IMG/VR virus record: IMGVR_UViG_3300031515_000002 | Coordinates: 1 to 28,402 of that record | Length of the DNA: 28,402 nucleotides | From: a virus | Direction: 5' to 3' (one strand) | In this document: piece after piece, positions 9,854-27,277 of the stretch | Layout: each line of letters opens with the position of its first letter | Position numbering within the stretch: position 1 is the stretch's first letter | The notes under the pieces: model-generated | What the model saw: the letters and a program-made list of their open reading frames with translations, nothing else | Databases searched by the model: none | Told to the model about the DNA's origin: nothing | Made by a program: the position numbers and the translations under genes

Positions 9854-10163
9854 AAAACAGGAAGAAAAAAAGGCTTTAACTTTAAATGAGGCAATAATGA
9901 AAGTAAATGAAATAATGATTTCAAGACCAGCGCTTTTAAATATTTCACTTACCGAAGAAGGAGGGGCCCATACATATAAATGGGCTGAAAATGATAAAGA
10001 GGCAAAGAAAAAAAGAAATGAAATAAGAGAGGTATTAAAAGAAGCTTGGCAAAATGGGGCTTTAAATTATCAAATGATTGCTGATAAATTAAGAGTGGAT
10101 GTTTTATCAATCCAGGCCTTAATTGATGAAGATTTTTTATTTAATTATCCGCATCTAAAATAA
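9843..10163 (+). CDS. Hypothetical protein with strong ribosome site
   Basis: A 106-residue protein. Its start is preceded by AGAAAGGAGGTGAT (about 9825-9838), an almost perfect complement of the usual 16S 3' end, spaced 5 bases before ATG. The C-terminal 45 residues may hold a small HTH-like fold (NYQMIADKLRVDVLSIQALI). It ends the head-gene segment just before the ORF-less region. Function unknown. Confidence 0.7.
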   Translation: MENKKQEEKKALTLNEAIMKVNEIMISRPALLNISLTEEGGAHTYKWAENDKEAKKKRNEIREVLKEAWQNGALNYQMIADKLRVDVLSIQALIDEDFLFNYPHLK

Positions 10164-10170
10164 TTGATTC

Positions 10171-10199
10171 TTGATTTTTATAATTATTTTTGCTATTAT
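10171..10199 (+). promoter_or_regulatory. Promoter of the ORF-less 10.2-10.6 kb transcript
   Basis: TTGATT, a 17-bp spacer and TATTAT. The predicted start is near 10206, just before the relatively GC-rich ORF-less region, supporting it as a plus-strand transcription unit. Confidence 0.65.
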
Positions 10200-10205
10200 T
10201 TTTTT

Positions 10206-10612
10206 GATTACGATTTTTTTAATTTGAAAAGTGTGGCAGCGGAGGTACTCCCAGCCTTTCCGTTTCCCTTAGTAATAAGGTTTGCGAATAAAAACGGCTT
10301 AACAATTGGGAGGGCGACCGAGACTCATCCAGACGCAAGATGAAAAGTAAAAATACTTTTGAATAAGTGAAAAACCCAAGCACACTCCTCGTGCCAGGAA
10401 ACAGAGGAGAGATGGGGTAGCGATAGGGAGAAATAAGGTAGGATTGTAGGGAGGTGTCAACAACCTGCTTGCGGAGGATAGATCGAGGGAAGCCAAGGGC
10501 GTCAAGCAACGGGAGAGTAGAGTAAGAGGGGGAAGGGGGAGGCATAATATACACGTCGTTTAATGTAAAATTGAGGCTAATTTTAACATCATTTTACGAC
10601 GTTATATTAAAA
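10206..10612 (+). ncRNA. Candidate large structured non-coding RNA
   Basis: About 400 nt without a credible reading frame, visibly richer in GC than neighbours and behind its own promoter. Local stems seen by eye: GGAG/CTCC at 10241-10251; CTCCCA (10249-10254) with TGGGAG (10307-10312) enclosing CCGTTT/AAACGG and CCTTA/TAAGG; TCATC/GATGA near 10324-10342; AAAAGTA/TACTTTT at 10343-10360; CTCCTC/GAGGAG near 10385-10410; AGGT/ACCT near 10451. The 3' part is purine rich and ends in a long interrupted inverted repeat (10547-10612). Size and phage setting recall large ornate RNAs such as GOLLD or ROOL, but I cannot assign it to either. A shorter frame on the minus strand (10219-10554) has an unlikely composition. 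Confidence 0.6.
10546..10612. repeat. Long interrupted inverted repeat between convergent units
   Basis: TAATATA, ACGTCGT and GTAAAAT are matched in reverse order by ATTTTAC, ACGACGT and TATATTA across about 66 bp. It lies between the end of the candidate RNA and the stop of the convergent RNase H-like gene. It may close the RNA's 3' domain or end transcription from both sides, though no U-run of normal length is present on either strand. Confidence 0.65.
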
Positions 10613-10615
10613 TAA

Positions 10616-10990
10616 TTAAGTAGCCCAAAGTTTTTCACGAGGACACCATTTTACTTCTATTTGATACTCTTTTACCAGTCTTTTAATAATTAAAGCAGTC
10701 AGTCTCAATCTTTCCTCTTTCACTTTATAATTTTCCATAGCAATTCCAACCATAAGTTTACTATCCGAATAAATTGTTTTTATTCCTTTTTTATATGCCT
10801 CAACAACAGCAACAAACAAAGCAAATAGTTCAGCCTCATTATTAGTATTATCATCACTATCAAGGGAAAGTATTATTCTTTCATTTGGAGAAAAGTTAAT
10901 TTTAGCTGTTGCTCTTCCACGAGGATGCCCAACTTTAAAAAAGAAAGGATTAGTAATTAAACTACCATCGCAGTGTATTGCTTTTTCCAC
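10616..10990 (-). CDS. RNase H-like protein, copy A
   Basis: A 124-residue type I RNase H-like domain. Acidic motifs: CDGS near the start, NNEAEL in the middle, YSDSKL after it. The usual last Asp (in a N-x-x-A-D type ending) is absent: the protein stops at REKLWAT. Type I RNases H cut RNA in RNA-DNA hybrids, and the last Asp is the least essential. Start: GTG at 10990, because alignment with the paralogue at 26314 begins there and it lies 6 bases after the -10 box; an ATG at 11029 would include the promoter. It is the only minus-strand gene in the structural region and faces the candidate RNA. Confidence 0.8.
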   Translation of the reverse strand: MEKAIHCDGSLITNPFFFKVGHPRGRATAKINFSPNERIILSLDSDDNTNNEAELFALFVAVVEAYKKGIKTIYSDSKLMVGIAMENYKVKEERLRLTALIIKRLVKEYQIEVKWCPREKLWAT

Positions 10991-10996
10991 TCTATA

Positions 10997-11025
10997 AGCA
11001 TACCATAAAAAAATCCCCTTGACAA
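10997..11025 (-). promoter_or_regulatory. Promoter of RNase H-like copy A
   Basis: On the minus strand TTGTCA (11025-11020), a 17-bp spacer and TATGCT (11002-10997). The -35 box overlaps that of the opposite promoter, so the two back-to-back promoters should compete. The mRNA would be leaderless at the GTG. Confidence 0.55.
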
Positions 11026-11047
11026 CCATAAGTTATTTTCGTATATT
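11019..11047 (+). promoter_or_regulatory. Promoter of the third structural segment
   Basis: TTGACA, a 17-bp spacer and TATATT. Half-site TTTCGTATA (also in the palindrome at 1415) overlaps the -10 box. Predicted start near 11054. Confidence 0.8.
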
Positions 11048-26313: not shown

Positions 26314-26679
26314 TTAGGTTGATAAATTTTCTTCTCTTCTAATCCAAACTAAATCAATCTTATAATGTTTAATTAAAGATCTTAAAATCAAAATAGATAA
26401 CTTTAATCTTTCTTCTTTTATATTCCAATCTTTTAAAATTGAATTTATAACGAATTGACTGTCTGATTTTATTATTTTTTTATTTGTTCTTATTGCTTCG
26501 CAAATAGCGACAAACAAAGCAAAAATTTCTGCTTCTTGCGAAGTGTTTTGGTTTGAGTTAAGATAAAGTTCAAGTCTTTCATTTTTTGAATGATTTACTT
26601 TGGCTACTGCTTGTCCTCTTGCTAAAAATTGATTTATATTTATCAATCCCCCATCACAAAAAATTTCATTTTTTTGCAT
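26314..26679 (-). CDS. RNase H-like protein, copy B
   Basis: 121 residues from the ATG at 26679 (AATATG); an upstream ATG at 26694 overlaps the preceding gene. It shares CDGG, QEAEI, KSDSQFV and LKLSILILRSLIKHYKIDL with copy A, and stops at REENLST, so the normal final Asp is again replaced, at the same place. The paralogy to 10616-10990 is clear by eye. It may process replication primers, or be an inhibitor or RNA-binding derivative. In the early operon between ERF and transglycosylase. Confidence 0.82.
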   Translation of the reverse strand: MQKNEIFCDGGLININQFLARGQAVAKVNHSKNERLELYLNSNQNTSQEAEIFALFVAICEAIRTNKKIIKSDSQFVINSILKDWNIKEERLKLSILILRSLIKHYKIDLVWIRREENLST

Positions 26680-26680
26680 A

Positions 26681-27277
26681 TTATTTGTTTTCAAAATAAC
26701 TATTAATCAATTTTTCTGCTTCTTTTAAATATGCTTTGTATACTCCAGTGGAGTATACAACCCAAGGATTAAATCCTTGCTCTTTATATATTTGATAAGC
26801 CACTTTTACGTTGTCGAAGCAGTCATCCCATTTACCACCGAACTTATCAAACCTCCATTGGTGTAAAGGAAGGTGAATTTGCATTAAACCATAGTCATTT
26901 GTTTTTGATACTCTTTGACAATTCAACCCGCTTTCTGCCATTGCAATGGCATAGGCGGTTATATCTTTGCCAAAGTAAATATATATTGCCTCAAGTTCAG
27001 GTCGAAACTCTTTTCGGTTCTCAACCCTATGTTGGGATGCCAAAATTTGCCCAAATTTTGCCTTTTCCTGCGATTTTTTTGTTGGTTGCCTATAGGGATA
27101 GCCTTCGTTTCTTTTTATGATTGGAGATTGGAATTTAATTATAATCGGAGTTTGAATTGTATAATTAGTCCAAAACTTATAATTTAGATATTCAAAAAGA
27201 AGAAAAAGAATTAAGAAGATTAAAATTTTGGTTTTTAAATTTAATCCTTTTTTTTCAAAATTAATTTTTTTTATCAT
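26681..27277 (-). CDS. Membrane-anchored lytic transglycosylase (SLT-like)
   Basis: A 198-residue protein. Residues 14-32 are a membrane or signal segment (TKILIFLILFLLFEYLNY); 105-185 form a lysozyme-like SLT domain: catalytic Glu115 (AIAMAESGLNC), NDYGLMQIH (127-135), and DNVKVAYQIYKEQGFNPW. It would cleave glycan strands outside the membrane. Phage SLT domains are mostly in tail or internal virion proteins; this one is in the early, minus-strand operon next to the anti-CRISPR, so a lysis or entry role is less clear. Confidence 0.8.
   Translation of the reverse strand: MIKKINFEKKGLNLKTKILIFLILFLLFEYLNYKFWTNYTIQTPIIIKFQSPIIKRNEGYPYRQPTKKSQEKAKFGQILASQHRVENRKEFRPELEAIYIYFGKDITAYAIAMAESGLNCQRVSKTNDYGLMQIHLPLHQWRFDKFGGKWDDCFDNVKVAYQIYKEQGFNPWVVYSTGVYKAYLKEAEKLINSYFENK

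Follow-up and report, generated by a model that had tools for sequence, protein, structure and literature searches.

A conserved noncoding phage RNA outside Rfam, linked to a convergent RNase HI-like gene and carrying a G-rich tract with a predicted stable RNA:DNA hybrid

The window, by which we mean the whole stretch of DNA analysed here, is a 28.4-kb virus record (28,402 nucleotides), and the RNA locus lies within its head-gene region, in an interval bounded by the gene of a 106-aa protein (ending at 10163) and an RNase H-like gene on the opposite strand (stop codon at 10616). A first-pass annotation of the sequence had proposed a structured RNA over all of 10164–10615; an RNA gene is confirmed at about 10206–10612, and the first 40 bases are the promoter. 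That promoter, TTGATT-17-TATTAT, is present as had been described, at 10171–10199 (+), with an extended −10 element (TGC before TATTAT). Its position is kept in the aligned homologous loci L005 and L006 and lost in a third, G001, where the 68 nt upstream of the RNA have no visible promoter. Downstream lies a noncoding RNA gene of about 400 nt (10206–10612, +; transcript ends inferred), which has homologues, is not coding and matches nothing in Rfam. Its higher GC content was confirmed: the transcribed part has 43% GC and the 3′ half (10425–10546) 54%, against 33.5% for the contig. The long inverted repeat reported near the 3′ end was also found, with ACGTCGT (10553–10559) facing ACGACGT (10596–10602) and GTAAAAT/ATTTTAC inside, which gives a long-loop hairpin ACGUCGU...ACGACGU (10553–10602, +) between the two convergent genes. 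There is good support for reading 10206–10612 as a conserved noncoding RNA gene that lies in the late operon, is driven by a promoter of its own and matches no Rfam family.

The RNA promoter has a CTTGAC/T motif in common with other promoters of the phage, and CTCTTGAC-type −35 boxes also stand upstream of other operons in these phages. Within the window, the promoters at 11019–11047 (+), 5150, 2114 (−) and 28248 (−) have a common extended −35 motif, CYCTTGACAA, which can serve as a marker for transcription units.

The first reading had seen no plausible gene in the interval, and the homologues bear this out. The sole long frame, on the minus strand (10219–10554), has 111 open codons in the window and stays partly open in L005, where compensating indels displace it, and it is interrupted in L006 and G001. 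Variable columns of the alignment fall about equally in each phase (26/24/29), with no 3-base period. The minus-strand frame was therefore rejected, and the proposed check for a protein frame conserved in homologues yielded none.

Homologues were collected by searching IMG/VR with the major capsid protein (MCP) and with the RNase H, which led to L005 (3300036768_001101), L006 (3300005573_000408) and L019/L030, the contig called G001 here (3300005573_000194). With the window, this makes four phage contigs that carry the RNA at 85–97% identity, and in each the same RNase H gene comes next. The alignment contains blocks invariant over at least 26 nt, among them about 10288–10335 (from the 3′ side of helix P3, described below, to GACGC) and GTGAAAAACCCAAGCACACTCCTCGTGCCAGGAAACAGAGGAGAGATGGGG, to which the sole exception is one inserted A in L005; the stretch 10340–10370 is variable. 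Between L006 and G001, 2.8% of RNA sites differ compared with 21% of RNase H third codon positions, and between the window and G001 the figures are 12.8% and 27%. The RNA thus changes more slowly than the third positions of its neighbour. This is consistent with selection acting on it, though part of its low divergence could stem from the RNA having recombined separately.

Wider searches added no further copies. Neither blastn against phages and plasmids nor a conserved-word pattern scan of genome contigs found a homologue, and exact-pattern scans of IMG/VR with four conserved words returned, apart from chance matches, just these three other contigs. Short chance matches were all that blastn found in genomes from the phyla of two MCP-relative hosts (35 genomes for one, 287 for the other). 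A profile scan for the RNase H gave no additional carriers, and a covariance model of the 5′ domain (R1) run over 337 kb of relatives recovered the four known copies only. A match in L009 (E 0.013) sits in a terminase gene and was set aside as chance.

The RNA and the convergent RNase H gene have common borders in all four contigs. In G001 and L006, homology begins at a T8-GATTACGA border, covers RNA and RNase H alike and stops at a CTTGA border. G001 resembles the window in TerL (90% identity), the ERF annealing protein (77%) and a nuclease-like gene (91%), but its portal protein is only 26% identical and its MCP is unrelated, so the module sits there in a different structural cassette. The RNA and RNase H gene are a two-gene module that mosaic phages pass on in one piece. 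The G001 major capsid gene (L030:1058–2365, +) has an HNH endonuclease domain inserted in frame (PHROG 1328 and HNH families).

Relatives without the RNA fall into two kinds. L004, a close relative of the window, has neither RNA nor RNase H, and G005, another relative, is without the module. L007, also a close relative, lacks the RNA and retains the RNase H and the −35 region of the RNA promoter; a sequence of about 390 bp (L007:9430–9815, −, equivalent to G004:12200–12590, +) takes the exact place of the RNA, from the T run to the stop codon of RNase H. This replacement has a perfect TTGACA-17-TATAAT promoter (12/12 of the sigma-70 consensus) on the other strand and a 3′ hairpin, and is in tandem with RNase H rather than convergent. 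It folds no more stably than expected by chance (z −0.3), and it has no homologue among the loci compared. It was also considered as a diverged inverted homologue of the RNA; local and global alignments were not significant beyond a G tract, which in L007 and G004 reads G6AG7 on the transcript strand.

The earlier description of many nested stems holds weakly beyond chance. Folded as a single sequence, the RNA has z −2.8 on the plus strand (better than 99 of 100 shuffles) and −4.2 on the minus strand (better than 100 of 100), but the alignment fold is close to its column-shuffled controls (z −1.2 plus, −1.8 minus). Helices of at least 6 bp shared in the alignment number 37 against 18 ± 6 in shuffles, and those containing a covarying pair 5 against 0.8, in counts where helices overlap and low-complexity tracts inflate the 6-bp class. 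Compensatory pairs amount to 1 of 27 in these four close sequences, and 0 of 80 in the alifold structure. A fold is likely but unproven.

The longest invariant blocks lie in a 5′ structured domain (10230–10417, +). Its candidate closing helix P1 (AGUGUG 10230–10235/CACACU 10381–10386) is invariant, as are the candidate helix P2 (CUCCCA/UGGGAG, 10248–10253 and 10307–10312) and, enclosed by it, the candidate helix P3 (CCGUUU/AAACGG, 10260–10265 and 10292–10297). Hairpin P4 (CCUUA GUAA UAAGG, 10267–10280) holds the compensatory change: three homologues have CCUUG ACAA CAAGG, the closing A-U becoming G-C, and shuffled alignments gave at least one local stem of this kind in 9.5% of trials. Reading the alignment directly, we also found a fast-evolving hairpin, AAAAGUA AAAA UACUUUU (10343–10360, +), which in L005 appears as AAGUGU..ACAUUU with the register shifted. 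The invariant stretch GCAC-A-CUCCUC-GUGC-CAGGAAACA-GAGGAG (10380–10409, +) could form an H-type pseudoknot as an alternative to P1.

The 3′ part of the RNA has a different character. Positions 10425–10545 (+) form a purine-rich (75%), G-rich (43%) tract whose predicted RNA:DNA hybrid is the best of the contig on either strand, within which G5-AA-G5 (10528–10539, +) is the only such tract in the contig; in the carrier RNAs the polypurine tract ends in G5–6 A(1–2) G5. Every one of the five RNase H-bearing contigs contains the pattern G5+ A(1–2) G5+ a single time (at most 0.02 expected), a uniqueness that is descriptive, the pattern having been chosen after the sequences were seen. It always lies in the RNA or in the replacement transcript of L007, and is absent from G005, which has no RNase H, and from G006. 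The stronger evidence is that it recurs across five contigs, including one where the sequence is non-homologous. We also scanned for hybrid advantage as nearest-neighbour RNA:DNA minus DNA:DNA energies, with values after the published tables. In each of the four carriers the best 60-nt stretch genome-wide, on either strand, lies within the RNA; over lengths of 120 and 200 nt the RNA ranks first in three carriers and second in one. The L007 replacement is third-best at 60 nt and poor or unremarkable at 120–200 nt. The locus thus combines, by prediction, a promoter-driven transcript, a G-rich tract and a stable RNA:DNA hybrid, as in ColE1- and CSBII-type systems.

The RNase HI-like gene (10616–10990, −) has a GTG start that aligns with the ATG of its homologues, in a frame open to 11029, and a promoter TTGTCA-17-TATGCT at 10997–11025 (−; TATACT in L006). 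The protein matches Pfam RNase_H (1e-7), PHROG_531 and, as an AlphaFold model (pLDDT 83), an RNase HI in the PDB (1.7e-8); the motifs CDG, AE and SDS are invariant in the alignment, so that both the fold and the D, E, D residues are present. The usual C-terminal Asp motif of RNase HI would lie past the ends of these proteins: all aligned copies end at PREKLWAT, and the fourth catalytic Asp, of the C-terminal helix, is absent. Because the proteins end before this motif, their activity is uncertain. A second RNase HI-like gene in the window (26314–26694, −) is 45% identical to that of the module, adjoins the ERF annealing gene and likewise lacks the motif, ending at RREENLST.

Three features that the first-pass annotation had not included, namely the linked convergent RNase H, the mosaic-phage module and the G5AG5 polypurine 3′ half, suggest an R-loop mechanism. 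From the computed RNA gene, its conservation and linkage, the uniqueness of the tract, the hybrid stability and the mosaic presence, we infer R-loop formation, RNase H action and priming, as follows. The promoter would drive a noncoding RNA of about 400 nt whose 5′ half folds (P1–P4, possibly with the pseudoknot) and whose 3′ half is the G-rich polypurine tract facing the convergent RNase HI-like gene. On transcription through the tract, the RNA would stay hybridised to its own template. In this R-loop, which may include a G-quadruplex, the hybrid would be trimmed or recognised by the RNase H of the module. The RNA 3′ end could then prime DNA synthesis immediately ahead of the AT-rich hairpin region, giving an accessory transcript-primed origin like those of ColE1 RNA II, T4 oriF or mitochondrial LSP-CSBII.

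We regard such an R-loop-forming transcript, handled by RNase H or used as a primer, as the leading mechanism, and hold it tentatively. In its favour are the same RNA and RNase H pair in four contigs, a G tract found once per genome, the best 60-nt hybrid of each genome, and the non-homologous L007/G004 replacement that also carries G6AG7; its parts are all visible, as promoter, 5′ RNA, G tract, AT-rich hairpin and RNase HI-like gene. Against an origin, the phage has a DnaD-like loader gene, so that another initiation system is already present, as well as the second RNase HI gene, and relatives exist without the module. Moreover, G001 shows no upstream promoter, the hybrid strength in L007 is local only, and the presence of RNase H without the RNA in L007 may mean that the linkage is hitchhiking. 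The more specific proposal of a mobile, self-contained R-loop origin, whose RNA can be replaced by an unrelated one keeping only the G tract, is rather doubtful.

Precedents for such a mechanism exist (PMC6317783, PMC3016281). ColE1 RNA II has an essential guanine-rich stretch and is processed by RNase H, and mitochondrial LSP-CSBII likewise involves RNase H processing (PMC6317783). The phage module resembles the former in its structured 5′ RNA, downstream guanine-rich stretch and RNase H, but differs in being phage-borne, in its own linked RNase H gene and unrelated sequence, and in that no RNA I-type antisense is seen and priming is a prediction. ColE1 RNA II is about 550 nt long, the phage RNA about 400. 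The likeness to LSP-CSBII and RNase H1 lies in a promoter followed by a G-run/A/G-run tract, as human CSBII also has, with a predicted stable R-loop; the phage tract, however, is about 320 nt from its promoter, compared with about 120 for CSBII, and belongs to a bacterial phage with a long conserved folded RNA upstream. T4 oriF and oriG depend on an AT-rich element for unwinding but on no particular RNA sequence, whereas the phage RNA is strongly conserved and G-rich, and T4 RNase H belongs to a different protein family than the RNase HI-like protein of the module.

Equally plausible is a trans-acting structured RNA like GOLLD or ROOL, an accessory "moron", scaffold, or ribosome- or protein-binding RNA to which RNase H is a mere neighbour. 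No function is known for the phage RNAs GOLLD and ROOL (PMC12286853), and a likeness to them had been proposed at the outset. What survives of that proposal is a new long phage RNA that is noncoding, has its own promoter in a late operon and is absent from Rfam; its invariant blocks, the compensatory pair in P4 and the loop-variable hairpins agree with a trans-acting role. The "ornate" character is conjectural. At the gathering threshold, Rfam cmscan gave no matches over the whole window, hence none to GOLLD, ROOL, ARRPOF, OLE, HEARO or group I and II introns; at E up to 10, 10100–10700 gave chance matches to other families only, and the homologous loci likewise gave nothing. By eye, RNase P, tmRNA and introns had no support. 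ARAGORN found no tRNA in the window, unlike the frequent tRNA neighbourhood of GOLLD and ROOL; the RNA, at about 400 nt, is smaller than these, and its fold has one compensatory pair in four close sequences and a stability barely above shuffled alignments. A trans-acting role also leaves the G tract and the RNase H linkage unexplained. The R-loop or primer function and the trans-acting RNA each take about one third of the weight, the rest going to DNA-element or regulatory roles.

It is unlikely that the locus is a conserved DNA element for replication, packaging or recombination, or a strong convergent terminator, with a transcript without function. The palindrome between convergent genes, the G tract and the AT-rich flank agree with this, and double-strand-symmetric evidence cannot separate DNA from RNA function. 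L004 and L007, both close relatives, do however manage without the element, which is hence no essential pac, cos or ori; a conserved promoter of its own reads across the region, and conservation spans 400 nt with hairpin-like variation and no iterons found. A cis-regulatory transcript or read-through antisense to RNase H has a still smaller chance: the genes are convergent and the hairpin region is only a few bases from the RNase H stop codon, but the invariant blocks are distant from RNase H and outside its coding frame, and the L007 replacement is in tandem with it. A decayed or hidden protein gene, for which the partly shared open minus frame speaks, is highly improbable given its disruption in homologues, the missing codon periodicity and an RNA that diverges less than RNase H third positions.

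The locus adds a family of phage noncoding RNA not in Rfam, tied to a specific enzyme. Should the R-loop reading be true, the module would be an origin that can be transferred together with the enzyme processing it, comparable in bacteria to mitochondrial CSBII and RNase H1; if false, what remains is an accessory RNA travelling between mosaic phages in company with an RNase H gene. As to hosts, relatives of the MCP are found in a contig of a Vermiphilus MAG (71%) and in another MAG whose phylum-mates mostly have 0.5–1.1 Mb genomes, both weak leads.

Elsewhere in these phages, L004 (6706–9042), L006 (8338–10674) and L005 (8338–9420) hold what appears by eye to be a glycosyltransferase/methyltransferase-like cassette; the window is without it, and its 106-aa gene leads straight to the RNA. 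A second local GC-rich island in the window is the gene of a pentapeptide-repeat protein (1625–2050, −).
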